Below, piece by piece: positions 9,292 through 42,271 of a stretch of 64,000 bases of DNA (positions within the stretch are counted from its first letter, which is position 1; each line of letters opens with the position of its first letter). The stretch is from Salicibibacter cibi (GTDB lineage Bacteria; Bacillota; Bacilli; Bacillales; Marinococcaceae), in the NCBI RefSeq assembly GCF_016495865.1, contig NZ_CP054706.1:682001-746000 (forward strand). Direction: 5' to 3'. Position numbers and translations under genes: made by a program. The notes beneath the pieces are model-generated. The model searched no databases and was not told where the DNA came from. It worked only from the letters and a program-made list of their open reading frames with translations.

Positions 9292-9312
9292 GAGAATGCT
9301 CCTTTCAAAAAG

Positions 9313-9339
9313 TTAGCACTCAAGATCGGTGAGTGCTAA
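9313..9339 (-). promoter_or_regulatory. CIRCE operator (HrcA site) of htpG
   Basis: TTAGCACTC-N9-GAGTGCTAA is an exact match to the CIRCE inverted repeat. It lies between the htpG promoter and the start codon, the normal position for HrcA repression of heat-shock genes. Confidence 0.95.
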
Positions 9340-9345
9340 CTTTAT

Positions 9346-9373
9346 TATTTAGCATTTGGGCGTTGCTTGTCAA
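9346..9373 (-). promoter_or_regulatory. Sigma-A promoter of htpG
   Basis: On the minus strand TTGACA (9368-9373) and TAAATA (9346-9351) are separated by 16 bases. Transcription would begin just before or within the CIRCE element. Confidence 0.7.
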
Positions 9374-9515
9374 TAGAAGAATGGTGCCGTGCAAGGGAAA
9401 ACACCTCAATAACTTGTCCGTGAAATCGCAAATATGGTTCGAACTTTATCATATACTGGCTTAAGTGATAGAATGTGAATAAAAGAGCGGGTAGTGGAGG
9501 AGATGGAAACCCTAG

Positions 9516-23437: not shown

Positions 23438-24340
23438 TTATTCTTGGATGTCAGTATCCAACCATTCATCAACCATGTCTCGATTATCATCAATCCACGC
23501 CTGTGCCGCATCTCGCGGTTCCATTTCATTTTCGGCGATGTCGAGCATGACTTCGTTCATATCGTCGGTTTCCCAATAGAAGTTGTCAAGAATCTGATAG
23601 GCTTCCGGTTCATCCTCTTCCAGCCCTTCTCGGACCATCGTGCGGATTTCTTCCTCTTCTTCATAAATGCCTTCCGGATCCTCGAGGAAACGAATGTCAT
23701 ATGTGTTAAATTTCCAGTGTGGTTCCCATGCCGTTACTACAATCGGTTCTTCATTTTCCATAGCGTTCCCTAATGCTGCAGTCATGGCGGCATCACTTGA
23801 CGTTTGTACAGAAATGTCTAAATCATACGCCTCAATGGCCTGCTCTGTTGAATCCACGACCCCGGCCCCAGCATCGATGCCAGTGATTTCATCAAAGTTG
23901 TCGGAATGGACTTCCTCAATACTGGTCACGTCCATATAATCCGGAACGGCTAAACCGGTGCGGTTTCCTTCCAAATTCGGACCTAGATCGATCATTTCAT
24001 CTCCATAACGTTCATAGTCCGTTGCCATATCCGAAGGTAACCAACCGGCAACAAAGCCATCCGCATCCCCTTGGGCGACACTTTGCCACATGATGGCCTG
24101 CTCGACTTGATTTAAATTCACATCATATCCTGCTTCTTCCAAAACTAGCGCAATGACATTGTTTGAAGCCACTTCGGATTCCCAGGCAACGTAGGTGAGT
24201 TCGATTTCCCCGTTTTCATCTTCGGCACCTTGCCCTTCTTCAGCTTGTCCATCTTCTTGTCCGCCATTTCCGCAAGCGCTAATGACTAGCGCACTCAGGG
24301 AGAGGGGTAATATCCATTTGCATTTTATGGAAAAATGCAT
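23438..24340 (-). CDS. Glycine betaine ABC transporter substrate-binding lipoprotein
   Basis: This is a 300-residue lipoprotein with lipobox SACG, an acidic linker and an OpuAC/ProX-type ligand domain. Aromatic-box Trp residues appear in YVAWESE, AGWLPSD and AWEPHW. The half with YVAWESE comes first and the half with GIDAGAG comes second. This is the opposite order to the paralog at 41303-42205. It would bind glycine betaine or a related compound outside the membrane. No ATPase or permease is adjacent, so it must use components elsewhere. The promoter and a palindromic operator overlap the start of the transcript, and gbsR is divergent. Confidence 0.92.
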   Translation of the reverse strand: MHFSIKCKWILPLSLSALVISACGNGGQEDGQAEEGQGAEDENGEIELTYVAWESEVASNNVIALVLEEAGYDVNLNQVEQAIMWQSVAQGDADGFVAGWLPSDMATDYERYGDEMIDLGPNLEGNRTGLAVPDYMDVTSIEEVHSDNFDEITGIDAGAGVVDSTEQAIEAYDLDISVQTSSDAAMTAALGNAMENEEPIVVTAWEPHWKFNTYDIRFLEDPEGIYEEEEEIRTMVREGLEEDEPEAYQILDNFYWETDDMNEVMLDIAENEMEPRDAAQAWIDDNRDMVDEWLDTDIQE

Positions 24341-24374
24341 GAGTAGAAAACCTCCTATTGAAATAATATAGAAT

Positions 24375-24432
24375 GTTTAATATTAACTAAATAATAGTAC
24401 GTTGACTATAACATAAATAGACGCTATGTCAA
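24375..24432 (-). promoter_or_regulatory. Promoter and putative GbsR operator of the betaine-binding protein gene
   Basis: On the minus strand TTGACA (24427-24432) and TATAGT (24405-24410) are spaced by 16 bases. Just downstream, 24375-24392 reads GTTTAATATTAACTAAAT on the plus strand. It matches the palindrome at 25468-25485 in 13 of 18 positions. Confidence 0.6.
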
Positions 24433-24463
24433 CGGATATTCGAATTTTTCGGCACTCCTGCGA

Positions 24464-24492
24464 TTGAATTTTTCATTGGGTGTCGGTATAAT
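24464..24492 (+). promoter_or_regulatory. Promoter of the gbsR-like gene
   Basis: TTGAAT (24464-24469) and TATAAT (24487-24492) are separated by 17 bases, 61 bases upstream of the start codon. A CGTTAA-CT-TTAACG palindrome at 24530-24543 sits next to the ribosome-binding site and may serve autoregulation. Confidence 0.65.
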
Positions 24493-24553
24493 TTAGATTA
24501 AATCAATTTTAAATGATTCGAATTTCTGTCGTTAACTTTAACGAGGTGATGTA

Positions 24554-25105
24554 ATGGATGATATACGAAAGGAAAAAGAAGCCGAGTTGGAAGAGGGTAA
24601 TCGATCCATCGAGGATAGTATTGCCGATACCATGGATATATACGGCTACACGCGTTCCGTTGGGCGGATTTATGCTATATTGTATTTGCATGGCGAGCCG
24701 ATGACGCTTGATGATTTGCGGCATGAATTGGGCATGAGCAAAGGAAGTATGAGTCTGGGCGTACGCAGGTTGATGGACGATAAACTCATTCACCGTGTTT
24801 TCAGAAAAGGAGAACGGAAGGATTTGTATCAGGCAGAACAGGATTATTTTAAATTCTTCACAAGTGTTTTTTCGCGTCGTTGGCAAAGGGAAGCAAGTGT
24901 GAACATGCAGGGCGTCCGTCAGGCTCAGCCACGATATGAAGCATTGATTGACGATCCGGATACGCCCGAGGATATCAGAGAAGATGCCAAACGAAAACTT
25001 GAAAAAATTACAGGGTCTCTGCCTTACTATGATTTCCTGGACTTGCTCGTTGCTAAAACGGAATCCGGTGAGTTATTTCAGATGTTATTAGATGAAAAAA
25101 AATAA
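24554..25105 (+). CDS. GbsR/MarR-type transcriptional regulator of betaine metabolism
   Basis: This 183-residue regulator has the GbsR/OpcR layout: an N-terminal helix, a winged helix (MTLDDLRHELGMSKGSMSLGVRRL) and a C-terminal dimer/effector part ending in ESGELFQML. In Bacillus, GbsR represses choline-to-betaine genes and choline uptake and responds to choline; OpcR and OpuAR are close relatives. It lies divergent to a betaine-binding protein gene and upstream of the HAD/ABC and betBA units. RBS GAGGTGAT. Its TAA stop lies inside the target duplication of MITE C copy 1, and its terminator is now 260 bp downstream. Confidence 0.9.
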   Translation: MDDIRKEKEAELEEGNRSIEDSIADTMDIYGYTRSVGRIYAILYLHGEPMTLDDLRHELGMSKGSMSLGVRRLMDDKLIHRVFRKGERKDLYQAEQDYFKFFTSVFSRRWQREASVNMQGVRQAQPRYEALIDDPDTPEDIREDAKRKLEKITGSLPYYDFLDLLVAKTESGELFQMLLDEKK

Positions 25106-25106
25106 T

Positions 25107-25353
25107 GGGTCAACACTAAAATCAATGGTTGATATTCGTGATTAAATATGGTAACACCACTAGCGAGCGAAGGAAAAACACGTAGACTCCTGTGGGAAAG
25201 CGCAGGGCGAAGACCCCGCAGGAAAAAAGCGAACTTCTTTTTTTTCGAGGAGGCTGAGCTCGGGGCCCACGGAAAGCGTAGGGTTTTTCCGTAGCGGTCA
25301 CTACCAATCATAATTGCCCCTAGTTTGTCAGCCATAGATTTTGGTGAAGAGCC
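25107..25353 (+). repeat. MITE C, copy 1 (247 bp, perfect 8-bp target duplication)
   Basis: The left end GGGTCAACACTAAAATC and right end GATTTTGGTGAAGAGCC form ~27-bp imperfect inverted repeats. AAAATAAT flanks both sides (25099-25106 and 25354-25361), a perfect 8-bp duplication as made by ISL3-type transposases; the ISL3 assignment is tentative. The interior is a long GC-rich imperfect palindrome without a gene. An almost identical copy in the opposite direction lies at 32057-32303. Confidence 0.93.
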
Positions 25354-25364
25354 AAAATAATGAG

Positions 25365-25397
25365 AAAAAAATCAGCGTCTAAGCGCTGGTTTTTTTA
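25365..25397 (+). terminator. Original terminator of gbsR, displaced by MITE C
   Basis: The CAGCG and CGCTG arms are flanked by an A-run and followed by seven T. It lies four bases beyond the right target duplication of the MITE. Before insertion it would have stood about ten bases after the gbsR stop codon. Confidence 0.75.
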
Positions 25398-25424
25398 GTT
25401 CCTCATCTTTAGACGGTACTAAAT

Positions 25425-25486
25425 TTGACTTATTTCGACAACCTGATATAATACAATAATAGTTAACGTTTAATGAAAATTAAACG
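25425..25486 (+). promoter_or_regulatory. Promoter and palindromic operator of the HAD/ABC operon
   Basis: TTGACT (25425-25430) and TATAAT (25447-25452) are spaced by 16 bases. Fifteen bases after the -10 box is the perfect palindrome CGTTTAAT-GAAA-ATTAAACG (25467-25486). The position just after the transcription start suits a repressor. The 18-bp core recurs at betB in 16 of 18 positions. Confidence 0.75.
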
Positions 25487-25539
25487 ATTAAAATATTGTA
25501 AATTAAATATTAAAGTGAGGTGATGAAGTTCTGGCTGAA

Positions 25540-26286
25540 TTGCAAGTAAATGGCCACCAATATAATATACGGGGTATTTTGTTTGATAAAGATGGGACCC
25601 TTCTTGATCTACACTTGCTATGGAGTTCTTGGTTTCATCAGCTTTTGGTGAAGATTAAAAATAAGCAACCAGGGGTTACGTTTAGTGATGAGGAAGTAGC
25701 AAAGGATCTAGGGGTGCATACTGAACAGCATCTTATTTTACCTAGAGGTCCCTTGGCGATAGGAACAATGCGGGACAGTGCCATTATTGTTGCTTTACAC
25801 CTATATCGGCAGAAACTCCCGTGGAATGAAGCAGTTCAAACGGTGCGGAACACTATGGAGGATGTCAATGCAACGATTGATTGGGATCGATATTTGCAAC
25901 CGCTTCAAGGATTGATATCTTTTTTGGAAAAAGCGTCTCAAAATGACGTGCAGATGGCGGTCGTTACATCCGACGATACGGATATTGCCGAGGAACACTT
26001 ACATTTATTGAATATCCATCATTTTTTTCATAGTATCATAGGATCTGACCAAATTGACCGGCCTAAACCTTTTCCTGACATTGGGCATAAGGCATGTCAA
26101 AAACTAATGGTTGATCCGACGCATGTCGCTGTCATTGGGGATACAAACGGCGATATGAATTTGGGTGACAATTTGAATGCAAAGGTTAATATCGGAGTCG
26201 TTGCCCATGACGATCCAAATGCTTCGCACTTGACTGATGCTGATCATATTATTCATGACTATGGTGAATTATCGATCCATACATGA
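25540..26286 (+). CDS. HAD-family phosphatase
   Basis: This ~248-residue HAD hydrolase has motif I FDKDGTLLD (nucleophile Asp first), motif II TSD (VVTSDD), a Lys region at RPKPFPD and motif IV GDTNGDMNLGDN. It has a helical cap and no signal peptide, so it acts on a phosphorylated small molecule in the cytoplasm. Position as first gene before a binding-protein-dependent importer suggests it dephosphorylates the imported compound. The start is uncertain: TTG 25540 is the first usual start codon but lies 19 bases after GAGGTGAT; CTG 25531 is better spaced. Confidence 0.85.
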   Translation: MQVNGHQYNIRGILFDKDGTLLDLHLLWSSWFHQLLVKIKNKQPGVTFSDEEVAKDLGVHTEQHLILPRGPLAIGTMRDSAIIVALHLYRQKLPWNEAVQTVRNTMEDVNATIDWDRYLQPLQGLISFLEKASQNDVQMAVVTSDDTDIAEEHLHLLNIHHFFHSIIGSDQIDRPKPFPDIGHKACQKLMVDPTHVAVIGDTNGDMNLGDNLNAKVNIGVVAHDDPNASHLTDADHIIHDYGELSIHT

Positions 26287-26345
26287 TTCATTTGGGAAAT
26301 GGTCAAAAAATGGTTATTTTTAACTGAAAAGGAGCGATTGAATAC

Positions 26346-27323
26346 ATGAAACTTAAATTACCTGGTGTGTTACTAGGATCCGTTTTTGCATTAACTGCAT
26401 GCGGAGATGATGACAGTGTCTCGATCTATACACATAACGTAGAAGATGAAATGCAACCCATGGTGTCGGATATGGAAGAAGAAACCGGTATAAATGCCGA
26501 TTTTCTGAATTTATCCAGCGAAGAAGGATTTAGCCGGGCTGAATCGGAATTCCCGGATGTCGGAGCAGAGGTACACTGGGGACAGTTGCATAGCTTAGCC
26601 CTTCTTGCTCAAGAAGAAGACATGCTAGGTTCTTATCAATCTCCTGAATGGGAAGATGTCCCTGATGAATTTAAGGATCCGGATGGACAATGGTATGGCT
26701 GGTCTTATTGGTACAACGAGTTGGCCGTTAATACAGATATCGTGGATGAATTAGGCTTGGACACTCCATCTTCTTGGGAAGACCTCATTGACCCTCAATA
26801 TGAAGGAGAAATTGTCATGCCGGATCCCAGTGTTTCAGGAACAGGCTTTCTATTCGTATCCACTATTATTCAAATGTTGGGTGAAGAAGAAGCATGGGAG
26901 TACTTTGAACAATTGGATGAAAATGTAGGCCAATATGTGGAATCAGCTGACGTCCCGGGACAATTGGCTGCTCAAGGAGAATACGCAGTGGGCATTACCT
27001 GGGATCAAGCTGTTGCCGACTTTATCGAAGAAGGCTACCCAATTGAAGGAGTTGTCCCGGATGAAGGTGTAGGTTATGACTTGGATGTCATCTTTATATA
27101 TGAGGGCAATGAAGATAATGAAAATGTTCAAGAAATCATTGATTATGTCGGTTCGGAAGCAGGCATGGAATCTGCTGCGGAACACCGCTCTATGGTAACG
27201 AAGCCGGGTGTTGAAGGCATTGCCGGAGATGAAGAACCGAATATGATTGACTATGACGCGCTTTGGGCAGCGGAAAATCGCCAAGATATTCAAGATGAAT
27301 GGGACAGTCGTTTTAATAGCTAG
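26346..27323 (+). CDS. ABC transporter substrate-binding lipoprotein (iron/AEP/thiamine type)
   Basis: This is a 325-residue lipoprotein (lipobox LTAC at residues 16-19) of the SBP_bac_6/SBP_bac_8 fold used by Fe3+, thiamine, spermidine/putrescine and 2-aminoethylphosphonate importers. It is very acidic, as expected for a halophile. It begins the transporter set SBP-permease-ATPase. Because the operon shares an operator with betB and stands beside gbsR, I infer that the ligand may be a choline phosphate ester; the sequence does not prove this. A ribosome-binding site (AAAGGAG) precedes ATG 26346. Confidence 0.88.
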   Translation: MKLKLPGVLLGSVFALTACGDDDSVSIYTHNVEDEMQPMVSDMEEETGINADFLNLSSEEGFSRAESEFPDVGAEVHWGQLHSLALLAQEEDMLGSYQSPEWEDVPDEFKDPDGQWYGWSYWYNELAVNTDIVDELGLDTPSSWEDLIDPQYEGEIVMPDPSVSGTGFLFVSTIIQMLGEEEAWEYFEQLDENVGQYVESADVPGQLAAQGEYAVGITWDQAVADFIEEGYPIEGVVPDEGVGYDLDVIFIYEGNEDNENVQEIIDYVGSEAGMESAAEHRSMVTKPGVEGIAGDEEPNMIDYDALWAAENRQDIQDEWDSRFNS

Positions 27324-27333
27324 GAGGATAATC

Positions 27334-28983
27334 GTGCGATTTAAATCTACATGGAAACGTTTTTTCTCTGAACCGGGATTTGCAGTGGCAGCCATTATTG
27401 TGGCTGCCCTGCTGATTTTCTTCATATTGCTGCCTCTTTCGGCGGTCTTGCTGCGAAGCTTTGGTGTCGGTGCCGAGGGATTTACGTTGGAGTATTATCA
27501 GCAATTCTTTCAACACTCCTCATACTTTCAGGCTTTGTTAAATAGCGTCGGGGTGGGTATTGTTACAACCAGTATTGTTATTTCTATCAGCGTACCCTTT
27601 GCTTTATATGTGACGCGAACGAAAAGTACACTATCAAAAGCGTATCGAGGGTTATCTTTACTGCCTCTTGTGGCACCTCCCTTTATCTTTTCATTATCAT
27701 TAATTATTTTATTCGGTAGGCGGGGAGTTGTAACCAATTATCTTAACGATATGTTTGGTGTGGAATTTAGCATTTATGGATTTTGGGGAGTAGTCGTTGC
27801 GCAGGTGCTCGGTTTCTTTCCGGTTGCCTATATGATGATTGAAACCTCTTTGCGTTCCATGAATCCAAGTTTGGAACATGCATCAAGGGATTTAGGAGCG
27901 AGTCAGACGCGCACGCTTTTTAAAGTATCTCTTCCCTTGGCCAGTACAAGCATTTTAAAGGCATCATTGATTGTGTTTGTTATGGCACTTGCCGACTTTT
28001 CCAATCCGCTTATTATAGGGGGCGAAACTTCTTTTCTGGCCTCAGATGCATACTTATTGGTGACCGGGCAGCAAAACATGGAAATGGCTGCGGTTCTCGG
28101 TGTATTCTTAATCGTGCCCAGTTTAATCGTTTTCTTGTTCCAGACTTATTTTATAAAAGACACTGATACCACATCGATCAGCGGTTCAGCGGGCAATCAA
28201 AATGCTTCACTTAATAAAGGTTTGCAAGGCATCACGTTTGGCATTAGCACGTTGATGACATTTTTTATTGTCATTATGTTCATCATGGTTGTCTTGGGAG
28301 CTTTTGTGCAAATAATTGGAGTAGATAATACATTTACGTTGGATCATTTTTCGGATCAAAGTGGATGGGGATTCATTTATACGAGTGTAATCGTTTCACT
28401 TTTTGCAGCGTTGTTAGCTGCTGGATTAGGTCTTTTACAAGGATATTTAACCGTTCGAAAAAATATCCCTGCTAAGAAATTCCTGGAATTTGTGGCTTTA
28501 TTCGGTTTGGCAGTGCCAGGTACCGTTATGGGGATCGGTTATGTGTTGATCTTTAATGGACCACCATTTTTCCTAACAGGTACAGTACTATTGCTTGTGC
28601 TAAATATGGCGTTTCGGAAAATTGGGGTTGGTTTGGAATCAGGGATTAGTAAATTGCAGCAAATCGATCCCTCAATGGAGGAAGCATCAGCGGACTTGGG
28701 AGCAAAACCAACACGTACCATTCGTAAAATTGTTATGCCATTATTGAGTCCGGCTTTTATGTCCGGTTTTGTGTATACGTTTATGACCGCGATGGTTTCG
28801 GTTAGCTCTGTCATTTTCCTCATTTCACCGGGAACAAACTTGGCTTCTGCTTACATTCTAAATTTGGCGAATCAAGCAGCTCTTGGCAGAGCTTCGGCCA
28901 TGTCCGTCATAATGATTGCCATTGTGCTCGTGTGTATGGCAATTCTTAAATGGTTAGAACGACGAAGCAACTCAGGGATTTGA
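27334..28983 (+). CDS. ABC permease with two fused membrane domains
   Basis: This 549-residue protein contains two BPD_transp_1 domains in tandem, as in FbpB, ThiP and PhnU/V-type permeases. Each domain has an EAA loop for the ATPase: EHASRDLGASQTRTLFKVSLP near residue 188, and EEASADLGAKPTRTIRKIVMP near residue 455. About 12 transmembrane helices are predicted by eye. GTG 27334 follows TAGGAGG. It lies ten bases after the binding-protein gene. Confidence 0.9.
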   Translation: MRFKSTWKRFFSEPGFAVAAIIVAALLIFFILLPLSAVLLRSFGVGAEGFTLEYYQQFFQHSSYFQALLNSVGVGIVTTSIVISISVPFALYVTRTKSTLSKAYRGLSLLPLVAPPFIFSLSLIILFGRRGVVTNYLNDMFGVEFSIYGFWGVVVAQVLGFFPVAYMMIETSLRSMNPSLEHASRDLGASQTRTLFKVSLPLASTSILKASLIVFVMALADFSNPLIIGGETSFLASDAYLLVTGQQNMEMAAVLGVFLIVPSLIVFLFQTYFIKDTDTTSISGSAGNQNASLNKGLQGITFGISTLMTFFIVIMFIMVVLGAFVQIIGVDNTFTLDHFSDQSGWGFIYTSVIVSLFAALLAAGLGLLQGYLTVRKNIPAKKFLEFVALFGLAVPGTVMGIGYVLIFNGPPFFLTGTVLLLVLNMAFRKIGVGLESGISKLQQIDPSMEEASADLGAKPTRTIRKIVMPLLSPAFMSGFVYTFMTAMVSVSSVIFLISPGTNLASAYILNLANQAALGRASAMSVIMIAIVLVCMAILKWLERRSNSGI

Positions 28984-29004
28984 AAAAGAGGGAGGTAATC
29001 GTTA

Positions 29005-30051
29005 ATGGCACAGCAAGATTCAATAATTAGCTTAAGCCAAGTAAACAAAGCTTTTGATGATGTGCGAGCTGTTCAGGACATTTCGATTGATGTGAATAAA
29101 GGGGAATTGGTGACGTTTATCGGTCCGAGCGGTTGTGGGAAAACGACATTGCTACGAACCATCGCCGGTTTTTATCGTCCCACATCCGGGGATATTTACT
29201 TGAATGGAACACGGATTAATAATCTTCCACCTGAAAAACGGGAAACCGGCATGGTATTCCAAAATTATGCATTGTTTCCCCATATGACGATTTTTGAAAA
29301 TGTGGCTTACGGTTTGGATGTGCGAAAAGAAACAAAGGAAACGAAGAAAAACAAAGTGCAGGATGCTTTGGTCCAAGTGCAGTTGGAAGGGTACGAAGAA
29401 CGCAAACCAAGTGAGTTAAGCGGGGGACAGCAACAACGTGTAGCGATCGCCCGTTGTCTCGTTTTAAAACCAAAAGTACTGCTGTTGGATGAACCCTTAT
29501 CTAATTTGGATGCCAATTTACGTATGATCATGCGGGATGAAATACGCCGTCTTAAGGAAGAATTAGATTTAACCATTATCTTTGTGACACATGATCAGGA
29601 AGAAGCGTTAAGTATTTCAGATCGGGTGATGGTACTGAATGAAGGCAACTTGCAACAATTGGATAAGCCGGAAGTCATCTATCAGCGTCCGGCCAATGAA
29701 TTCGTTGCAAACTTTGTCGGTCATGCCAATTTATTATCGGGCCAAGTGAAACAAGAAAACAGTGATTCCTATTTTGTCGCGAAGGACTTACAATTTGCCG
29801 TTGAAAATATGGATGCCAAAAATGGATTAGTTTTAATCCGTCCGGAAATGATCGATATTCATCTAAATGGCTCCATTCAAGGAGTCGTCTTGAATAGAGT
29901 CTACCATGGGAACTCCATACGTTACGAAGTGAAAGTGGGCGATACCGTTCTTCTTGCCGACGATTATAATGTTTTCGGAAAGGATCTATATACAAAAGGG
30001 CAAACGATACGCCTGGATATTCCAAAAAAACTACATTTAATTTCAGCGTGA
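29005..30051 (+). CDS. ABC importer ATP-binding protein (PotA/FbpC-like)
   Basis: This 348-residue ATPase has Walker A GPSGCGKTT, signature LSGGQQQR, Walker B LLLDEPLSNLD and switch His in FVTHDQEE. A C-terminal TOBE-like domain (~residues 240-348) is typical of ATPases for spermidine, Fe3+ or phosphonate importers. It closes the HAD-SBP-permease-ATPase operon and is followed by a strong terminator. GGGAGG precedes ATG 29005. Confidence 0.93.
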   Translation: MAQQDSIISLSQVNKAFDDVRAVQDISIDVNKGELVTFIGPSGCGKTTLLRTIAGFYRPTSGDIYLNGTRINNLPPEKRETGMVFQNYALFPHMTIFENVAYGLDVRKETKETKKNKVQDALVQVQLEGYEERKPSELSGGQQQRVAIARCLVLKPKVLLLDEPLSNLDANLRMIMRDEIRRLKEELDLTIIFVTHDQEEALSISDRVMVLNEGNLQQLDKPEVIYQRPANEFVANFVGHANLLSGQVKQENSDSYFVAKDLQFAVENMDAKNGLVLIRPEMIDIHLNGSIQGVVLNRVYHGNSIRYEVKVGDTVLLADDYNVFGKDLYTKGQTIRLDIPKKLHLISA

Positions 30052-30066
30052 GACACGCTCCTAGTT

Positions 30067-30100
30067 AAAGAGAGCCGCACCTATTAGGGCGGCTCTCTTT
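30067..30100. terminator. Bidirectional terminator
   Basis: AAAGAGAGCCGC and GCGGCTCTCTTT form a perfect 12-base stem between the convergent ABC ATPase and phosphodiesterase genes, with A/T runs on both sides. Confidence 0.9.
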
Positions 30101-30101
30101 A

Positions 30102-31934
30102 TTATTCATCAACGACTGTAATTTCAGTAGATGTAAGGATGTCATGACCTTCATTTTCAAACATATAAATACGGTATTCTCCCGGTTCAAGAACATCCGT
30201 ATCTCCCCAGCTGCCATCCAACAACAATGAGCCTTCACGATCTCCTCCTAGATACTGCCATTGTAAGGAGCTTATATCATCAGGTGATTCGTCAATTGGA
30301 TAAATCCCTACCCAATCATTTGGAAAACCAGTAGCATCTTCCCATTCAACTTTAACCGGTTCACCATGTTTTTGTTCAGGCTCCACATTTAAGGTTGCTG
30401 ATTCACTTGATGCCAATACTTCAAAGGAAGTTGATGCTCCTTCTTCGTCTCCATCAGCCAGAAATACAGCTTCATATTCTCCGGCAGGAAGCGGCCATTC
30501 ACCGGCAGCAATAGAATCTTCGCCAAAAGAGATTGTACCTTCTTGTTTGGCTTCTCCAGGTTCTTGATTATTGGAACCGGTATAGTTCCAGAGCAGAGGA
30601 TCCTCGTCTCGGTCCCCGTCTTTCGGGTAGATAGCCACTTGATCTTTTTCCGAAGGCTGCTCATCTACATAAAAATTCATATCAATGGTTTCCCCGACCT
30701 CATACTCCATTTGAGAAGGGGATACTTCCGCTTCTGGAGCAGATACTGAATCGGAAGTAAAGGTTGAGACGACCGCGCGATGGTCGGAAGGCCAATTCTC
30801 CAATTCAATATCGGAATAAGGGCCGACTTCGGCTACCACTTCGCTATTCTCTGTGATGGAAGGTCCGGCAGCATAGATAAAGTCAATACGATCATGTACT
30901 TCATCATCATTAATATCTCCCGGAGGGTCTCCCGGTGTCCAAGTATAACTCGGAAATTCTAAGGGGCTTTCATTAATTTCACGATAGGAATCCCGGAAGC
31001 CCAGATCGTCTAAATGCATAGAAACCGGCCATTCGACCACTGTATTGAAATTATCTTCCTTGGTTTCCTCTGTCCAATCAAGGTGGGAAGGGACGTTGAA
31101 GTCGCCTGTTAGAAATACCGGCACGTCATCTTTTTGTAGCTCTGTTAATGAGTCGAAACGGGATCTCATTTCCATCATATGGTGTCGTTCATTTCCGATG
31201 ACTTGTTCAACGGTGAATTCGTCTCTTATGTCATAAGGGCCATAAGGATCGTGCAATAAATGGACATTGCTTACTGCCACCACTTCATCGGGTTCAACTT
31301 CTACATAAACGTAATCAGGATGGCCTACATCGATGATCGGGTAACGGCTAATGATTTCTTGGTTGTGGTCCGCATAATAACCAAGTTCGTCCGCTAATCG
31401 GTCCAAGTTCCCGCTTTCTTCTTGGACGCCGACAATATCCGCATCTGCTTCTTCAACAGCACGAACCGTTTCATCAAACGAAACCTCTTCGCCACCAAGC
31501 CAAATGTTAAAGGACATCACGCGTAATTCATGTTGATCTATCTTTTCCCACACATCCCATTCACCGGAATCATCTGGGTTTTCACCTTGTGTCCACCACT
31601 TGGCTTCATAAATAGTCCCCTCATGTTGAACGCGATCTCCATCTTCGTATGTGTCTTGTTCTGACCAAACGGGCAGGCTCTCCTCCCCATCGTTTGTACA
31701 TTCGGAGGCCACTTTCCATACATCCCATTCACCGGAATCATTCGGGTTTTCGCCTTGTGTCCACCACTTGGCTTCATATATTTCCCCGTCATATGAAACG
31801 CGGTCTCCTTCTGTATATGTGCTTTCTTCCGACCACTCATCAGCCTCGCAGTTGGCTTCCTCTGCATTGGCCATTTGATTAAATGGCACAATCACGAAAA
31901 GAGCTGCCAAGATTACTTGCATAAATCTTTTCAC
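30102..31934 (-). CDS. Secreted endonuclease/exonuclease/phosphatase-family protein with chitin-binding domains
   Basis: This ~610-residue exported protein has a signal peptide ending at ANA. Two CBM5/12 (ChtBD3) modules follow at about residues 33-75 and 88-131, each with YEAKWWTQGENP. An EEP/DNase I-like domain spans ~135-390 (SFNIWLGG, VQEE, TGDFN, DRIDFIYA, SDHR). Two related C-terminal beta modules contain VAIYP and VGIYP. EEP enzymes include nucleases, sphingomyelinases and lipid or sugar phosphodiesterases. Convergence with an importer and a HAD phosphatase suggests phosphate-ester breakdown outside the cell. GTG 31934 follows AGGAGG. Confidence 0.85.
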   Translation of the reverse strand: MKRFMQVILAALFVIVPFNQMANAEEANCEADEWSEESTYTEGDRVSYDGEIYEAKWWTQGENPNDSGEWDVWKVASECTNDGEESLPVWSEQDTYEDGDRVQHEGTIYEAKWWTQGENPDDSGEWDVWEKIDQHELRVMSFNIWLGGEEVSFDETVRAVEEADADIVGVQEESGNLDRLADELGYYADHNQEIISRYPIIDVGHPDYVYVEVEPDEVVAVSNVHLLHDPYGPYDIRDEFTVEQVIGNERHHMMEMRSRFDSLTELQKDDVPVFLTGDFNVPSHLDWTEETKEDNFNTVVEWPVSMHLDDLGFRDSYREINESPLEFPSYTWTPGDPPGDINDDEVHDRIDFIYAAGPSITENSEVVAEVGPYSDIELENWPSDHRAVVSTFTSDSVSAPEAEVSPSQMEYEVGETIDMNFYVDEQPSEKDQVAIYPKDGDRDEDPLLWNYTGSNNQEPGEAKQEGTISFGEDSIAAGEWPLPAGEYEAVFLADGDEEGASTSFEVLASSESATLNVEPEQKHGEPVKVEWEDATGFPNDWVGIYPIDESPDDISSLQWQYLGGDREGSLLLDGSWGDTDVLEPGEYRIYMFENEGHDILTSTEITVVDE

Positions 31935-31994
31935 GTTAATTCCTCCTGTTTGTTTTTTAAAAGTCTTGAGTACACCTCCTATTTGTTTAAAAAT

Positions 31995-32011
31995 ATTTAA
32001 CCATATTAAAC
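31995..32011 (-). promoter_or_regulatory. Degenerate GbsR-like operator upstream of the phosphodiesterase gene
   Basis: On the minus strand it reads GTTTAA-N5-TTAAAT, like the 25468 and 32379 palindromes but with one base less between the arms. It lies 61 bp upstream of the start codon. No clear promoter is identified. Confidence 0.35.
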
Positions 32012-32056
32012 ATACCATAAATTTAATAAAATTAGTATAATGTTTTTAAATGATTT

Positions 32057-32303
32057 GGCTCTTCACCAAAATCTATGGCTGACAACCTAGGGGCAATTAT
32101 GATTGGTAGTGACCGCTACGGAAAAACACGACGCTTTCCGTGGGCCCCGAGCTCAGCCTCCTCGGAAAAAAAGAAGTTCGCTTTTTTCCTGCGGGGTCTT
32201 CGCCCTGCGCTTTCCCACAGGAGTCTACGTGTTTTTCCTTCGCTCGCTAGTGGTGCTACCATATTTAATCGCGAATATCAACCATTGATTTTAGTGTTGA
32301 CCC
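32057..32303 (-). repeat. MITE C, copy 2 (247 bp, perfect 8-bp target duplication)
   Basis: This is the same 247-bp element as 25107-25353 in reverse orientation, with only scattered differences. Its own target duplication AATGATTT lies at 32049-32056 and 32304-32311, so it inserted independently. It sits between the phosphodiesterase and betB promoters. Confidence 0.93.
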
Positions 32304-32334
32304 AATGATTTTTATAGGTTTATATACAATTTCA

Positions 32335-32396
32335 TTGACAGTTTCATCACTTCATGGTAACTTTGAATTATTCAAAACGTTTAATAAAAGTTAAAC
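32335..32396 (+). promoter_or_regulatory. Promoter and palindromic operator of betBA
   Basis: TTGACA (32335-32340) and TAACTT (32358-32363) are spaced by 17 bases. Fifteen bases later comes GTTTAA-TAAAAG-TTAAAC (32379-32396). Core sequence and distance from the -10 box equal those of the HAD/ABC operon. Confidence 0.72.
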
Positions 32397-32429
32397 AAAT
32401 AACTATACTACAAAAAGGAGCGTGATCCT

Positions 32430-33899
32430 TTGCGCTTACAAATGTATATCGACGGTCAATGGGTGGATGCTGTCGACGATGAAACCCGTGATATCATCAA
32501 CCCTTATAATCAGGAAGTGATCGCAAATGTTACGGAGGGCAACGAAGAAGATGCAAAAAAAGCCGTTGCCGCTGCACGCCGTGCATTTGATAACGGAGCG
32601 TGGGCGACGACACCGGCGAGTGAACGGGGGGCGATCGTTCATGACATTGGCCGGCTGATTCGTTCGTCCCGTCAAGAACTTGCTGAGCTCGAAACGCTCG
32701 ATACCGGGAAGACGCTCAGTGAAAGTCTCGACGATATGGACGACATCGCCAATGTGTTTATTTATTTTGCCGGTTTGGCGGATAAAGATGGCGGTGAAGT
32801 GATTGATAGCCCGATTCCGGATTCCACAAGCAAGGTTGTTCGCGAGCCCGTGGGCGTATGCGGACAAATCACCCCGTGGAATTATCCGTTATTGCAGGCC
32901 GCCTGGAAGTTGGCCCCGGCACTTGCCGCGGGAAATACGCTCGTGATGAAACCGAGCGAGATCACGCCGCTAACGACCGTGAAAGTGTTTGAGCTTTTTG
33001 AACAAGCCGGCGTCCCTGCAGGCGTGGCAAACCTTGTCCTCGGACCGGGCAATACGGCAGGTGCGCACCTATCCGAAAGCACGGACGTCGACTTGATTTC
33101 ATTTACCGGCGGAATCGACACCGGGAAGAAAATCATGCAAGCCGCAAGTACGAATGTGAAAAAGCTCGCGTTGGAGCTCGGAGGCAAAAACCCGAACATT
33201 ATCTTCGCAGATGCGGATATTGATGTGGCAGTTGATCAAGCATTGAACGCGGCTTTCTTCCACGCGGGACAAGTGTGTTCGGCCGGTGCGCGCGTACTCG
33301 TTGAAAGCTCCATGCATGACGCATTTGTCGATGCCCTCGTCAAGCGGGCGAAGCATATTAAACTCGGCAATGGTTTCGCGGAAGATACGCAATCCGGGCC
33401 GCTCATTTCTGCCGAGCACCGTGAGAAAGTAGAAGCATATGTCGCCATCGGCCAAGAGGAAGGCGCAAAACTCGCGCTTGGAGGAAAACGACCGGAAGCC
33501 GAAGAACTGCAACAAGGGTTCTTTTATCTGCCGACGATTTTTACCAATTGTACAGCCGATATGCGCATCGTGCAGGAAGAAGTATTTGGACCGGTGCTGA
33601 CGGTAGAACCATTTGAAACAACAGAAGAGGCAGTGGCGAAGGCGAATGACACGATTTATGGACTCGCAGGCGCGGTCTTCACGGAAGACATTGCAAAGGC
33701 GGAAAACGTCGTTACCCAACTTCGTATGGGAACCGTTTGGATCAATGATTTCCACCCTTATTTTGCCCAAGCGCCTTGGGGCGGTTACAAACAATCGGGC
33801 ATCGGCCGTGAACTCGGGCGCCCTGGCTTGGAGGAGTATACGGAGACGAAGCATGTGTTCAGAAACACTAACCCCGAGCCTTTGGAATGGTTTAAATAA
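32430..33899 (+). CDS. betB: Betaine aldehyde dehydrogenase
   Basis: This 489-residue NAD(P)-dependent aldehyde dehydrogenase oxidises betaine aldehyde to glycine betaine. The catalytic Glu lies in LELGGKNPN and the catalytic Cys in FFHAGQVCSAGARV; the cofactor motif FTGGIDTGK is present. The start is TTG 32430, nine bases after AAGGAG. It forms an operon with betA 15 bases downstream. A copy with an identical protein sequence is at 38664-40133 on the other strand; the DNA identity begins at the ribosome-binding site and ends at the stop codon. Confidence 0.95.
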   Translation: MRLQMYIDGQWVDAVDDETRDIINPYNQEVIANVTEGNEEDAKKAVAAARRAFDNGAWATTPASERGAIVHDIGRLIRSSRQELAELETLDTGKTLSESLDDMDDIANVFIYFAGLADKDGGEVIDSPIPDSTSKVVREPVGVCGQITPWNYPLLQAAWKLAPALAAGNTLVMKPSEITPLTTVKVFELFEQAGVPAGVANLVLGPGNTAGAHLSESTDVDLISFTGGIDTGKKIMQAASTNVKKLALELGGKNPNIIFADADIDVAVDQALNAAFFHAGQVCSAGARVLVESSMHDAFVDALVKRAKHIKLGNGFAEDTQSGPLISAEHREKVEAYVAIGQEEGAKLALGGKRPEAEELQQGFFYLPTIFTNCTADMRIVQEEVFGPVLTVEPFETTEEAVAKANDTIYGLAGAVFTEDIAKAENVVTQLRMGTVWINDFHPYFAQAPWGGYKQSGIGRELGRPGLEEYTETKHVFRNTNPEPLEWFK

Positions 33900-33914
33900 G
33901 AGGAGGTTTTAGAG

Positions 33915-35618
33915 ATGAGTCAAACGTATGATTATGTCATTGTCGGTGGAGGGAGTGCGGGTTGTGTACTCGCTAACCGTCTAAGCGAAGATAAATCGAA
34001 AAGTGTGCTCGTTCTGGAAGCGGGGCGCAGTGATTATCCATGGGATTTGTTTATTCAAATGCCGGCTGCTTTGATGTACCCGTCCGGTAATCCTTTATAT
34101 GACTGGAAGTACTATACAGATCCTGAGCCTTATATGAATGGACGGAAAGTCTCGCATGCCCGGGGGAAAGTACTCGGAGGGTCGAGCTCAATAAATGGAA
34201 TGATTTACCAACGTGGTAACCCAATGGACTATGAAAAGTGGGGCGCTGACTCGGGTATGGAAACGTGGGATTATGCCCATTGTCTACCGTATTTTAAACG
34301 GTTGGAAGCAACCTTTGGAGCAAGTTCGTCTGATGAGTACCGCGGACATCATGGCCCGATTAAATTGAAACGGGGTCCTGCAAAGAATCCTTTATTTCAG
34401 GCCTTTTTTGATGCAGCTGTAGAAGCCGGTTACTCGAGAACACCTGATGTCAACGGTTTTCGCCAAGAAGGGTTTGGTCCATTCGACAGTCACGTGCATA
34501 ACGGGCGACGCGTGTCTGCTTCGAATGCATATTTGCGCCCTGTGATGAAACGCGAAAACCTTACAGTAGAGACGCTTGCTGTCGTTACCAATATTAATTT
34601 TGACGCCACTCGAGCTAATGGTGTGACGTGGCAAAGAAATGGGAAACAATTTCATGTTAACGCAGGCGAAGTGATCCTTGCAGGTGGTGCATTCAACACG
34701 CCGCAACTCCTTCAATTGTCCGGGGTAGGCGACGCTGAACACTTACGCTCCCTTGGCATTGACCCACTCGTTGATTTGCCGGGTGTAGGTGAAAACTTTG
34801 AAGATCATCTCGAAGCATATGTTCAGCATGCTTCGCCGGAGCCTGTTTCTGAAATGCCTAGTTTAAATAAAGCAAAAATGCCTTGGATTGGTTTGCAATG
34901 GCTGCTCGCGCGTACTGGCCCCGCAGCAACTAATCATTTTGAAGGTGGAGGTTTTGTCCGCTCGAATGATGATGTTGATTATCCGAATCTGATGTTTCAT
35001 TTCCTTCCGCTAGCGGTTCGATATGATGGAGAAAAAGCGGATACGAAGCATGGATTCCAAGTACACGTTGGACCGATGTACTCCAACTCTCGGGGAAGCC
35101 TTAAAATACGTTCCCGCGATCCTTATCAGCATCCGAGTATCATATTTAACTATTTATCTACCGAAGAGGACAAGCGTGAGTGGGTTGAAGCAATTCGTAC
35201 TGCACGGAATATTCTTTCCCAGCCGGCGTTAGAGCCCTATAATTCAGGTGAAATTTCCCCCGGGGCATCTGTCCAAACGGATGAGGAAATTCTGGAGTGG
35301 GTAAGGAATGACGCTGAAACAGCGCTCCATCCATCCTGCAGTGCAAGAATGGGATCTGTTTCAGATCCGATGGCGGTTGTAGACCCGCTGACCATGAAGG
35401 TCCATGGCCTGGAAAACCTGCGGGTTGTTGATGCGTCCGTTATGCCGTATACGACGAATGGAAATATCCATGCACCGGTGTTGATGTTGGCAGAAAAAGC
35501 AGCCGACATCATCCGCGGACAAAAGCCATTAGAGCCTGAATATAAGGACTATTATCGTCACGGCGTACATTCGAAAGACGCGGGCACCGTAGAAAAAAAT
35601 CGGGTGGTGCGTTCATAA
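33915..35618 (+). CDS. betA: Choline dehydrogenase (GMC flavoprotein)
   Basis: This 567-residue GMC oxidoreductase has the N-terminal FAD motif [20 protein letters not shown] and the GMC signature [20 protein letters not shown]. The C-terminal active-site pair is His in HPSCSARMG and His/Asn in [15 protein letters not shown]. It oxidises choline to betaine aldehyde, probably at the membrane. Bacillus species usually use the iron alcohol dehydrogenase GbsB for this step; the BetA type here is more like Gram-negative bacteria. AAGAGGAGG precedes ATG 33915. Confidence 0.94.
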
Positions 35619-38615: not shown

Positions 38616-38663
38616 AGCTCCGGCTGGCGGATACGAAAGTTGGCATTCTTTTGGTATGCTCTT

Positions 38664-40133
38664 TTATTTAAACCATTCCAAAGGCTCGGGGTTAGTGTTT
38701 CTGAACACATGCTTCGTCTCGGTATATTCCTCCAGGCCGGGGCGCCCGAGTTCACGGCCGATGCCCGATTGTTTGTAACCGCCCCAAGGCGCTTGGGCAA
38801 AATAAGGGTGGAAATCATTGATCCAAACGGTTCCCATACGAAGTTGGGTAACGACGTTTTCCGCCTTTGCAATGTCTTCCGTGAAGACCGCGCCTGCGAG
38901 TCCATAAATCGTGTCATTCGCCTTCGCCACTGCCTCTTCTGTTGTTTCAAATGGTTCTACCGTCAGCACCGGTCCAAATACTTCTTCCTGCACGATGCGC
39001 ATATCGGCTGTACAATTGGTAAAAATCGTCGGCAGATAAAAGAACCCTTGTTGCAGTTCTTCGGCTTCCGGTCGTTTTCCTCCAAGCGCGAGTTTTGCGC
39101 CTTCCTCTTGGCCGATGGCGACATATGCTTCTACTTTCTCACGGTGCTCGGCAGAAATGAGCGGCCCGGATTGCGTATCTTCCGCGAAACCATTGCCGAG
39201 TTTAATATGCTTCGCCCGCTTGACGAGGGCATCGACAAATGCGTCATGCATGGAGCTTTCAACGAGTACGCGCGCACCGGCCGAACACACTTGTCCCGCG
39301 TGGAAGAAAGCCGCGTTCAATGCTTGATCAACTGCCACATCAATATCCGCATCTGCGAAGATAATGTTCGGGTTTTTGCCTCCGAGCTCCAACGCGAGCT
39401 TTTTCACATTCGTACTTGCGGCTTGCATGATTTTCTTCCCGGTGTCGATTCCGCCGGTAAATGAAATCAAGTCGACGTCCGTGCTTTCGGATAGGTGCGC
39501 ACCTGCCGTATTGCCCGGTCCGAGGACAAGGTTTGCCACGCCTGCAGGGACGCCGGCTTGTTCAAAAAGCTCAAACACTTTCACGGTCGTTAGCGGCGTG
39601 ATCTCGCTCGGTTTCATCACGAGCGTATTTCCCGCGGCAAGTGCCGGGGCCAACTTCCAGGCGGCCTGCAATAACGGATAATTCCACGGGGTGATTTGTC
39701 CGCATACGCCCACGGGCTCGCGAACAACCTTGCTTGTGGAATCCGGAATCGGGCTATCAATCACTTCACCGCCATCTTTATCCGCCAAACCGGCAAAATA
39801 AATAAACACATTGGCGATGTCGTCCATATCGTCGAGACTTTCACTGAGCGTCTTCCCGGTATCGAGCGTTTCGAGCTCAGCAAGTTCTTGACGGGACGAA
39901 CGAATCAGCCGGCCAATGTCATGAACGATCGCCCCCCGTTCACTCGCCGGTGTCGTCGCCCACGCTCCGTTATCAAATGCACGGCGTGCAGCGGCAACGG
40001 CTTTTTTTGCATCTTCTTCGTTGCCCTCCGTAACATTTGCGATCACTTCCTGATTATAAGGGTTGATGATATCACGGGTTTCATCGTCGACAGCATCCAC
40101 CCATTGACCGTCGATATACATTTGTAAGCGCAA
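38664..40133 (-). CDS. betB: Betaine aldehyde dehydrogenase, second near-identical copy
   Basis: The protein is identical over all 489 residues to 32430-33899. At DNA level the only differences I could find are four synonymous substitutions within about 25 bases near the 3' end (codons around GRPGLEEYTE). Identity begins at AAAAGGAGCGTGATC and stops right after the stop codon. The gene is last in a minus-strand operon with a reductase, betaine-binding protein, Rieske protein and amidohydrolase. It lacks the palindromic operator found before the first copy. Confidence 0.95.
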   Translation of the reverse strand: MRLQMYIDGQWVDAVDDETRDIINPYNQEVIANVTEGNEEDAKKAVAAARRAFDNGAWATTPASERGAIVHDIGRLIRSSRQELAELETLDTGKTLSESLDDMDDIANVFIYFAGLADKDGGEVIDSPIPDSTSKVVREPVGVCGQITPWNYPLLQAAWKLAPALAAGNTLVMKPSEITPLTTVKVFELFEQAGVPAGVANLVLGPGNTAGAHLSESTDVDLISFTGGIDTGKKIMQAASTNVKKLALELGGKNPNIIFADADIDVAVDQALNAAFFHAGQVCSAGARVLVESSMHDAFVDALVKRAKHIKLGNGFAEDTQSGPLISAEHREKVEAYVAIGQEEGAKLALGGKRPEAEELQQGFFYLPTIFTNCTADMRIVQEEVFGPVLTVEPFETTEEAVAKANDTIYGLAGAVFTEDIAKAENVVTQLRMGTVWINDFHPYFAQAPWGGYKQSGIGRELGRPGLEEYTETKHVFRNTNPEPLEWFK

Positions 40134-40196
40134 AGGATCACGCTCCTTTTCATATTTTCATATAGATGTTAAAAGTATCACGAAGCTCCCTTTTAA

Positions 40197-41189
40197 TTAA
40201 AACATATGCGTGCTATGACCAGGTTGAAGCCGGGATCCCGGGTCCATATAGGCTTTTGCATTACTGACGGCAGTTGGAGCTTCACCAAATCCGGTGGCAA
40301 TCAACTTCACTTTGCCATCGAAGGAGGCAATGTCTCCGACCGCATAGATCCCCTTGATGTTCGTTTCCATGCGGGAATTCACAATAATGGAGTTTTTGGT
40401 CGTATCGAGTCCCCACGTTTTAATGGGACCTAGCGATGAAATAAACCCATAGTTGACAATCACATTGTCAACGTCAATGATTTTTTGATCGGTACCTTTC
40501 ACTTCCTGAAGGACAACCTGTTTAATATTTTCACCATTGCCCCGGAGTTCGCTTATTTCAAATGGGGTGTGCATGTTTACGGGAGCCGATTGTAATTCGG
40601 CGATGCTATGCTCATGAGCCCGAAATTTATCACGACGATGGGTAAGCGTCACATTCGCGTCATTGGCAAGCGTCAGCGTCCAATCAACGGCAGAGTCTCC
40701 ACCCCCACAAATAAGGACGTCCTTGTTTTTGAAAGCGCCTAGGTTATCAACAAAATAGTGAAGGTTTTTGCCCTCATATTGTTCGGCCTCCTCAATTTTG
40801 AGCTTTCGGGGTTGAAAAGCACCAACACCGGCGGCAACGATAATCGTCCGTGAGTAATGGGTGTCCTTGTCTGTTTCAATTCTAAACGTCTCGTCGTTGA
40901 GCTTATCGACGGTTTCTACGGATTGATCAAGCACAACGGTTGGTTCAAACATTTGCATTTGTTCAACCAAGTCGTCAACAAGGTCTTGAGCGCGAACTTT
41001 TGGGAAACCGGCCACGTCGTATATATACTTCTCGGGATAAAGAGCAGAAAGTTGACCGCCCAGTTGGGGCATGCTCTCAATGATCTTCACTTTTGCCTGG
41101 CGCATCCCTCCGTAGAAAGCGGTGAACAATCCTGCTGGTCCTCCACCAATAACTGTTATATCGTAAGTATCCATGTAATCATCATCCAC
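40197..41189 (-). CDS. Ferredoxin/flavodoxin-NADP+ reductase, YumC type
   Basis: This 330-residue flavoprotein has the FAD motif [20 protein letters not shown], the central DVAGFPKV, a second nucleotide motif ([10 protein letters not shown]) and GIYAVGDIA near the C-terminus. These are features of thioredoxin-reductase-like ferredoxin-NADP+ reductases without the redox CxxC. It would pass electrons from NADPH to a ferredoxin, here perhaps the Rieske protein two genes upstream. GTG 41189, seven bases after GGAGGTG, is the preferred start. Confidence 0.9.
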
Positions 41190-41302
41190 TATCCTACACC
41201 TCCAATCATGGTTTTCTGTGCACTTGGGGTTCTGGAGATCAGAGCATCCTTCACGATGATAAGTCCCTTGGATCAAACTGACCGTGATATTACAGATGAA
41301 CT

Positions 41303-42205
41303 TTATTCTTCATCCTGTAGGTCTTCAATAGAATCAATATCCATATAATCTGGGACAACAAAACCTTGTTGGGCACCCTCTAAATTTGGACCCAGGTCGA
41401 CGATCTCATCTTCATATTGTTCATAGTAAGTTGATGCACCTACAGGGAGCCAAGCAATCAACATACCATCACTTTCCCCATCGGCAAGGGCTTGAAATGC
41501 CACGCCCATATCAACAGACGACAACTCGACATCGTAACCTAATTCTTCAAGAACTTGCGCAACGACATTCGTTGATGCAGTTTCTGTTTCCCAATTGACA
41601 TAAGCCAACTCGATTGTCTCATTTTCAACTGGTTCGATGCCTTCTAACCAAGCGTCCACCTCATCCCGGTTGTTTTCAATCCACTCCTCCGCTGCGTCGG
41701 GGAATTCCACATCATCTTCTCTGGCATCTAACATAACTTCATTCATATCTTCGATTTCCCAGTGGAAATTATCCAATAATTGGTAGGCGGAAGCATGATC
41801 ATCTTCAAGACCTTCCCTGACCATTGTATGGATATTTTCAGATTGCCCCATCGCTTCTTCCGGGTCATCCAAGAATTCCAAGTCATAGTCATTAAACGCC
41901 CAGTGTGGCTGCCAAAGCGTAACGACGACTGGTTCTTGATTTTCAATCGCTTCTTCTAATTCCGCTATCATGGCTGCTTCTGAACTTGACACTAGATCAA
42001 TGTCTAAGTCATAGGCATCCATTGTCCTCTCAGCCATATCCATCGTACCCGACCCCGGGTCAATCCCAACAATTTCTTCAATGCCGTCTACATCATGATT
42101 TTCTTCCTCTTCTTCAGCGCCTGATGAACGTTCATCTCCGCAGGCTGTAAGTGCAGCTAACATTCCAAAAGATACTAATCCATACACTAAACGATTTTTA
42201 CACAT
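41303..42205 (-). CDS. Glycine betaine-binding lipoprotein, circularly permuted OpuAC (B. subtilis order)
   Basis: This 300-residue lipoprotein has lipobox LTACG. The ligand domain has the order of B. subtilis OpuAC: the [12 protein letters not shown] half first (with TLWQPHW) and the [12 protein letters not shown] half second (with IAWLPVG). The paralog at 23438-24340 has the halves the other way round. The three aromatic-box Trp residues are retained, so binding of glycine betaine or another quaternary amine is likely. A weak terminator lies between it and the Rieske gene, so its expression may be set separately within the operon. Confidence 0.92.
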
Positions 42206-42241
42206 TAAAAATTCCCCTCTTTGTTATATAATTACATTAAA

Positions 42242-42262
42242 AATGCGGAATGAATCCGCATT
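42242..42262 (-). terminator. Attenuator or terminator after the Rieske gene
   Basis: AATGCGGA-N5-TCCGCATT is followed on the minus strand by five T. It lies inside the operon, so it probably reduces expression of the binding protein, reductase and betB relative to the first two genes. Confidence 0.65.
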
Positions 42263-42271
42263 GAAATTATT

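Follow-up and report, generated by a model that had tools for sequence, protein, structure and literature searches.

Gene content of the locus

The 64,000-nucleotide stretch of DNA analysed here ("the window") comes from Salicibibacter cibi, a halophilic relative of Bacillus, and corresponds to positions 682001 to 746000 of a genome consisting of a single 3.81-Mb contig. Open reading frame (ORF) and family searches reveal, in this order, the gene of an OpuAC-type substrate-binding protein (SBP), gbsR, four genes for a HAD phosphatase and the SBP, permease and ATPase of an ABC importer, the gene of an EEP-superfamily phosphodiesterase with two CBM5/12 modules, and the betB-betA pair. An initial annotation of this DNA had placed the same genes together, and every one of them was recovered. 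We consider it reasonably probable that the locus is a GbsR-controlled unit scavenging choline phosphate and feeding glycine betaine synthesis for protection against salt.

The gbsR gene (24554-25105, + strand) encodes a GbsR/CudC-type choline regulator scoring 198 bits against the model NF047500, the cut-off of which is 218. The HAD-importer genes follow on the same strand: a HAD-IA phosphatase with intact catalytic motifs (25540-26286), a PhnS2/AfuA-like binding lipoprotein (26346-27323), a PhnU2-like permease with two fused domains (27247-28983; these are ORF limits and the true start is uncertain) and a PotA/PhnT2-like ATPase (29005-30051). The first two are proposed here to be a phosphocholine phosphatase and a phosphocholine binder. 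The HAD protein matches an S. cibarius protein at 96%, and the importer SBP an S. halophilus protein at 87%. The EEP gene (30102-31934, - strand, likely start GTG at 31934) encodes a probably secreted protein. The betaine-aldehyde dehydrogenase BetB (32430-33899, + strand) and the choline dehydrogenase BetA (33915-35618, + strand) both exceed their equivalog cut-offs (738 bits against 669 for TIGR01804; 903 against 732 for TIGR01810). At the other end of the locus, the OpuAC-type lipoprotein of the choline/betaine family (23438-24340, - strand) scores 212 Pfam bits for a cut-off of 21; no permease ORF was seen beside it.

A motif shared by the HAD-importer and betBA units

The pattern GTTTAAT-N4-RTTAAAC, with one mismatch at most, occurs at two places in the 3.81-Mb genome: before the HAD gene (25468-25485) and before betB (32379-32396), 54 and 33 bases from the respective starts. 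Both are putative GbsR operators, the former being a perfect 7-N4-7 palindrome. The pattern was derived from the locus itself, so that the HAD site counts as given. When two mismatches are allowed, 38 forward and 53 reverse matches are found genome-wide, where the reversed control gives 34 and 38; such sites alone therefore mean little. Two of them lie between the OpuAC-type SBP gene and gbsR, one at 24375-24392 (- strand), downstream of a promoter-like TTGACA-16-TATAGT of the SBP gene, and one at 24486. Another operator-like palindrome, with a 3-bp spacer, precedes the EEP gene (31995-32011, - strand). The idea of a palindromic operator common to several units, put forward in the initial annotation, thus holds with two close sites and weaker variants at SBP/gbsR and EEP.

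What speaks for an operator is the repetition of the motif, its rarity in the genome and its presence in two sister genomes. In these same-genus loci (L132 and L133), such sites lie before the SBP, HAD and betB units, and in L132 additionally before EEP. Palindromes before the operons of two more distant loci, L007 and L118, were matched in 152 and 20 of 300 shuffles, and are not clearly above chance. The mapped GbsR operator of Bacillus subtilis is an A/T-rich inverted repeat with 4-bp spacing, located downstream of the transcription start and acting as a roadblock (PMC7396694). The putative window operators exhibit the same features, being A/T-rich inverted repeats with a 4-bp spacer downstream of predicted promoters. 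The HAD and SBP sites each lie downstream of a promoter-like site matching 11 of 12 positions in a promoter scan (a sigma-A-like site at 25425-25452, + strand, for the HAD-importer operon); for the betB site the promoter-like sequence was recognised by our inspection, not by the scan.

The importer binding protein

Fold and sequence searches (model pLDDT 91.5) identified AfuA, VcA0625 and P5PA as the nearest solved relatives of the 26346-27323 SBP, with 27-30% identity and a TM-score of about 0.8 in fold alignments with the AfuA/P5PA class. Phosphate-ester binders rank first (E-values of 6.4e-29 to 1.5e-25), and the best iron protein reaches 5.3e-20. The ligands of the three relatives are hexose phosphates and pyridoxal phosphate, and their contact residues have been published (PMC8427247, PMC4546632). 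We transferred these contacts to the window SBP by pairwise alignment and scored conservation over 54 sequences. The two residues forming hydrogen bonds with the AfuA phosphate, S37 and T150 (PMC4546632), are kept as S58 (serine in 50 of 54) and T166 (54 of 54). Four of the seven residues listed around this phosphate are identical (S58, S164, G165, T166), and the ring contact Y103 is kept as Y121. The sugar contacts H205, D206 and E229 are replaced by Q221, A222 and D245, and F203 by W219, followed by D220. Residues W116, W122, W219 and D220 are invariant in all 54 sequences; they may hold a trimethylammonium group.

The best NCBIfam models are PhnS2 for the SBP and PhnU2 for the permease, while for the ATPase PotA comes first and PhnT2 second. 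All three Phn scores fall below the cut-offs (216 of 393 bits for TIGR03261, 323 of 593 for TIGR03262 and 364 of 458 for TIGR03265). AepX, a characterised 2-aminoethylphosphonate binder belonging to Pfam 13343 (PMC8316502), is related to the window SBP at the family level.

A match to the importer SBP was found in 82 of 299 genomes of the order. The HAD gene lies directly upstream at all seven listed SBP places with 52-100% identity, the window included; among the 20 regions examined, the 51% paralogue in the same genome and 13 weaker places exhibit no HAD gene upstream. A co-location proxy pairing equal-sized records from top-120 homologue lists, from which the window's own proteins and rows lacking a contig were left out, gave 16 HAD-SBP pairs against a shifted baseline with a mean of 0.47 and a maximum of 4. 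The EEP-SBP and EEP-HAD combinations gave 4 pairs (baseline 0.53, maximum 4) and 1 pair (0.5, maximum 3). Such pairing of records is only suggestive of HAD-SBP co-location.

The 51% paralogue belongs to an importer at about 2.79 Mb of the same genome (L112, 5541-12875), which faces another gbsR-type gene (137 of 218 bits). The opposing operon contains genes for an L-carnitine-dehydrogenase-like protein (377 of 414 bits), a keto-acid cleavage enzyme and a thioesterase-like domain, which makes L112 a candidate GbsR-type carnitine locus. This context suggests that the importer clade may take up trimethylammonium compounds.

The HAD phosphatase and its genomic neighbourhoods

The four catalytic motifs of the HAD protein (D16, D18, T143, K176, D201, D205) are present in 36 of 36 homologues. 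Phosphonatases exhibit D-x-A in place of the phosphatase DxD; the second aspartate thus indicates a phosphatase rather than a phosphonatase, and matches to PhnX models are weak (30 of 220 bits). We saw no signal peptide by inspection. Together with a dedicated ABC importer, this suggests that a phosphate ester would be imported intact.

At least 508 HAD relatives were found. The best 80, six order-wide loci and the window make up the 87 sequences that were scored; having been collected through HAD, the 80-locus sample is biased, with many Paenibacillus. A gbsR gene lies within 8 kb of HAD in 31 of the 87, for a chance expectation below 1% (roughly estimated, given that matching genomes of 2.0-7.6 Mb contain 1-5 CudC-type matches each). 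Within the same distance were a metallophosphoesterase in 26, a UgpB-like SBP in 25, a window-type SBP or distant relative in 13, a CehA/McbA-type hydrolase in 4, betB in 3, and betA and sphingomyelinase in 2 each. Of the three betB matches, one is the window gene, one consists of the two short pieces in L003, and that in L078 is a distant aldehyde dehydrogenase. The initial annotation had proposed looking for the HAD-importer genes next to gbsR or betBA elsewhere, and the outcome is largely favourable: gbsR is near HAD in the 31 sequences, and in L132 and L133 the HAD-importer operon sits between gbsR and betBA, but betA (2 of 87) and betB (3 of 87) are rarely near HAD. An SMR-family exporter, possibly of quaternary amines, also occurs near HAD in 25 of the 87 (e.g. 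L005, L024, L025).

The arrangement varies among loci. In L119 the HAD-importer genes are followed on the same strand by gbsR, the product of which exceeds the NF047500 cut-off (257 bits). In L003 and L067, betA is oriented divergently from a set comprising HAD, a Ugp-like importer and gbsR; L003 (Virgibacillus) has its neighbouring betB only as two short frames of 123 and 108 aa (8734-9456). L048 and L051 have HAD and gbsR with no recognised importer beside HAD. PhnS2-type importers accompany HAD in the window, L007, L060, L073 and L114-L119, and distant relatives of the window SBP (25-27%) in L024, L025 and L031. UgpB-like importers do so in L003, L067 and many Paenibacillus, and Dpp-like importers in the gammaproteobacterial loci L008 and L002 (the latter by our inspection). 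In L013 and L061, HAD follows a permease (an ethanolamine permease in L061) and precedes what on inspection appear to be microcompartment genes. The same region, around 6.1-14.6 kb, also encodes a class-III aminotransferase-fold protein and a kinase-like protein.

We built a HAD tree from 73 of the 87 sequences, dropping 14 that scored below 200 bits, and labelled as "linked" those with gbsR, a window-type SBP or CehA nearby. The label needs 6 changes on the tree against 24.7 in shuffles, none of 500 being as low, a clustering that is favoured by near-copies. The Paenibacillus HADs split into a branch linked to gbsR and another found in other contexts (e.g. L004). Class-wide, the HAD profile matched in 47 of 398 genomes and a CudC-type gene was found in 158 of 398.

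The EEP protein and other esterases

The window EEP protein exhibits catalytic-type motifs and, on inspection, a signal-peptide-like start. Its 50 listed fold neighbours (TMq 0.47-0.64) are exonuclease III, AP endonucleases, LINE-1 endonuclease, TDP2, Crc and similar proteins; no sphingomyelinase is among these 50. Its identification as a sphingomyelinase C was considered and rejected, as there is no match to TIGR03395, only weak matches to exoDNase III, and a nuclease-like fold neighbourhood. Across the order, 19 of 299 genomes match; beyond the window, the match extends over the EEP domain at only one of 28 listed places, and over the CBM part at the others. The protein may act as a nuclease or as a diesterase with a different substrate. 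The claim of the initial annotation that it releases a choline phosphate ester is not supported, given its nuclease-like fold and its absence from L133, where a metallophosphoesterase lies between gbsR and HAD. We regard a part for it in the pathway as possible, if on balance doubtful.

Different esterases occur at other loci. A sphingomyelinase C gene comes after the four HAD-importer genes, on their strand, in L007 (Gracilibacillus halophilus) and L118. The L007 enzyme matches PDB 2ddr with an E-value of 9.5e-100, and both proteins exceed the TIGR03395 cut-off. Sphingomyelinase C releases phosphocholine. Opposite the HAD-importer operon of L119 lies a metallophosphoesterase whose start resembles a signal peptide. 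One esterase may thus substitute for another across loci.

Repeated elements and a second betB

A 271-bp element lies upstream of both HAD (25097-25367, + strand) and EEP (32043-32313, - strand), the second copy separating the EEP site from the betB site and adjoining the EEP promoter region on its upstream side. It was considered as a shared control element and rejected: because the genome holds 40 or more long matches to it (40 among 102 candidates scored), it is a dispersed repeat, an insertion outside the pathway. No match to the 25097-25367 copy was reported in L132 and L133. An Rfam search gave one sub-threshold match, which was disregarded.

The betB sequence occurs twice, in inverted orientation (32413-33902, + strand, and 38661-40150, - strand), the copies being 99.7% identical over 1490 bp. 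The initial annotation mentioned neither the second copy nor the two dispersed repeats. The sister genome has both betB copies at matching places, 97.8% alike, and the species differ by about 10%. Because the copies are more alike within a genome than between species, they have probably undergone concerted evolution by gene conversion. The second betB is part of a run on the - strand (38664-43700) that includes genes for a flavoprotein reductase, an OpuAC-type SBP with swapped halves (41303-42205), a Rieske protein and an Amidohydro_2 protein.

Proposed pathway and alternative explanations

In the pathway that we propose, phosphocholine would be freed outside the cell by phosphodiesterases of the same or other organisms. 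The 26346-27323 SBP would catch it through the phosphate-ester site and the aromatic/acidic pocket, and the permease and ATPase would import it intact. Inside the cell the HAD phosphatase would remove the phosphate, and BetA and BetB would oxidise the resulting choline to glycine betaine. GbsR would sense choline and leave its operators, freeing the units. Phosphocholine import, dephosphorylation and oxidation to betaine, the core of the initial annotation, thus gain in plausibility from the shared motif, the gbsR linkage, the sphingomyelinase loci and the phosphate-site residues.

We favour phosphocholine because the HAD-importer and betBA units share a rare motif and BetA and BetB exceed their cut-offs, and because the nearest solved relatives of the SBP bind phosphomonoesters through residues kept as S58 and T166. 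The comparison of loci argues in the same direction: gbsR recurs near HAD, HAD recurs with PhnS2-type, UgpB-like and Dpp-like importers, the L007 and L118 operons run into sphingomyelinase C, and the L013 and L061 HADs sit with a permease and apparent microcompartment genes. The paralogue context in L112, with its hint of trimethylammonium uptake in the clade, adds to this.

A number of observations weigh against this reading. The window regulator falls below the CudC-type cut-off. As to regulation, 7-N4-7 palindromes equally good were found in 8 (HAD), 81 (betB), 155 (EEP) and 273 (SBP) of 300 shuffles, the palindrome scored for the last three units differing from the named site, so bare palindromes are mostly ordinary for such A+T-rich DNA; promoter-like matches in the region number 19 for 20.0 expected by chance; and none of 30 other loci exhibits a looser form of the motif upstream of gbsR. 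Three residues around the AfuA phosphate are changed in the SBP (E59, L81, A201). The nuclease-like fold of the EEP protein and its loss from L133 count here too, as does the lack of the importer in one of the four genomes of the genus. The window HAD has a weakly supported tree position (86/46), and gbsR is not found within 8 kb of HAD in 56 of the 87 sequences, among them the Paenibacillus branch in other contexts. Among the nine window-type loci outside the genus (L007, L060, L073, L114-L119), gbsR is near only one, L119, and no betA or betB match was found near any, some of these stretches being short. The scarcity of gbsR at these nine loci has lowered our confidence both in the pathway and in the wider system described below.

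Among other explanations, the importer may take a choline phosphodiester such as glycerophosphocholine, HAD acting after diester cleavage or on glycerol phosphate. Ugp systems take glycerophosphodiesters, and HAD occurs elsewhere with UgpB-like SBPs and metallophosphoesterases or a CehA/McbA-type hydrolase. However, the window HAD-importer operon contains no diesterase gene, the best models and structures for its SBP are PhnS2 and phosphomonoester binders rather than UgpB, and the sphingomyelinase of L007 and L118 yields phosphocholine itself; we regard a diester as rather unlikely. It is improbable that the ligand is ferric iron or another unrelated compound, or that the importer takes phosphate esters in general for phosphorus, the betaine genes being mere neighbours. 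Some relatives bear the database name "iron(III) transport", Fe3+ binders form the next fold class, and gbsR is mostly not near window-type importers outside the genus. Iron binders, however, possess a Tyr-Tyr dyad, and no Tyr-Tyr pair is present in the SBP sequence; phosphate-ester binders outrank iron proteins in the fold search, and neither the motif common to HAD-importer and betBA nor the sphingomyelinase linkage fits mere adjacency. AfuA itself was once misannotated as an iron binder (PMC4546632).

An importer of 2-aminoethylphosphonate, or of an N-methylated aminophosphonate, with a phosphonatase-like HAD appears very improbable. PhnS2 and PhnU2 are the best models for SBP and permease, PhnT2 is second for the ATPase, and HAD has weak PhnX matches, but all these scores remain far below the cut-offs, and the phosphatase DxD is found in all 36 HAD homologues. 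Moreover, PhnW stays below its cut-off throughout the genome (best 40 of 401 bits) and PhnJ gave no match, in a search that did not include other phosphonate routes (PhnY/PhnZ, PbfA). Iron and phosphonate, which the initial annotation listed only as alternatives, are thus both disfavoured by the fold ranking, the kept phosphate residues and the PhnW/PhnJ search.

Returning to phosphocholine, there may exist in Bacillota and some Gammaproteobacteria an undescribed import system that takes up intact phosphocholine or related amino-alcohol phosphates and is built around HAD, often together with GbsR, as its invariable component; we hold this proposition to be evenly balanced. SBPs of several classes would serve in the importer, while the esterase would be sphingomyelinase C, a metallophosphoesterase or, in Salicibibacter, the EEP protein. 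Searches of the open-access literature listed no phosphocholine importer or GbsR-phosphatase system. If the proposal is true, the importer of the window would be one of the earliest cases of a bacterial ABC importer with phosphocholine as its assigned ligand. Abundant membrane lipids carry phosphocholine as their headgroup. The locus names concrete genes and would link lipid breakdown to salt protection. It would also give a function to transporters now labelled iron or phosphonate importers.

Comparison with known systems

PchP of Pseudomonas aeruginosa is a HAD-superfamily enzyme; this organism dephosphorylates phosphocholine outside the cytoplasm and imports choline. Its PlcH-PchP-BetAB system (GbdR regulon) resembles the proposed pathway in leading from phosphocholine through a phosphatase to choline and betaine: a secreted lipase frees phosphocholine, the phosphatase and choline oxidation follow, and regulation is tied to choline metabolites (PMC3170909, PMC3572970, PMC12323605). 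In contrast, the window possesses a dedicated ABC importer, a HAD with no visible signal peptide and an unrelated regulator. In Phaeobacter, where the phosphocholine headgroup is likewise a nutrient, PhoX cleaves phosphocholine outside the cell and BetT takes up choline, unlike the route proposed for the window; the 2023 study leaves import of the intact headgroup undecided (PMC10132767).

The AfuABC hexose-phosphate and P5PA pyridoxal-phosphate importers contain the nearest solved SBPs, with counterparts of S58, T166 and Y121, but the window SBP differs by Q221, A222, W219 and D220 and has different partner genes. AepXVW and PhnS2-U2-T2 provide the best NCBIfam models for the window SBP and permease, whereas the window proteins stay below the cut-offs and the genome lacks PhnJ and a PhnW above the cut-off. 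Finally, the GbsR-gbsAB-opuB system of B. subtilis has, like the window, a GbsR-type regulator near choline-to-betaine genes and an A/T-rich inverted-repeat operator (PMC7396694). In the window, betBA replaces gbsAB, and one of the units carrying the motif encodes a phosphatase together with a dedicated importer.

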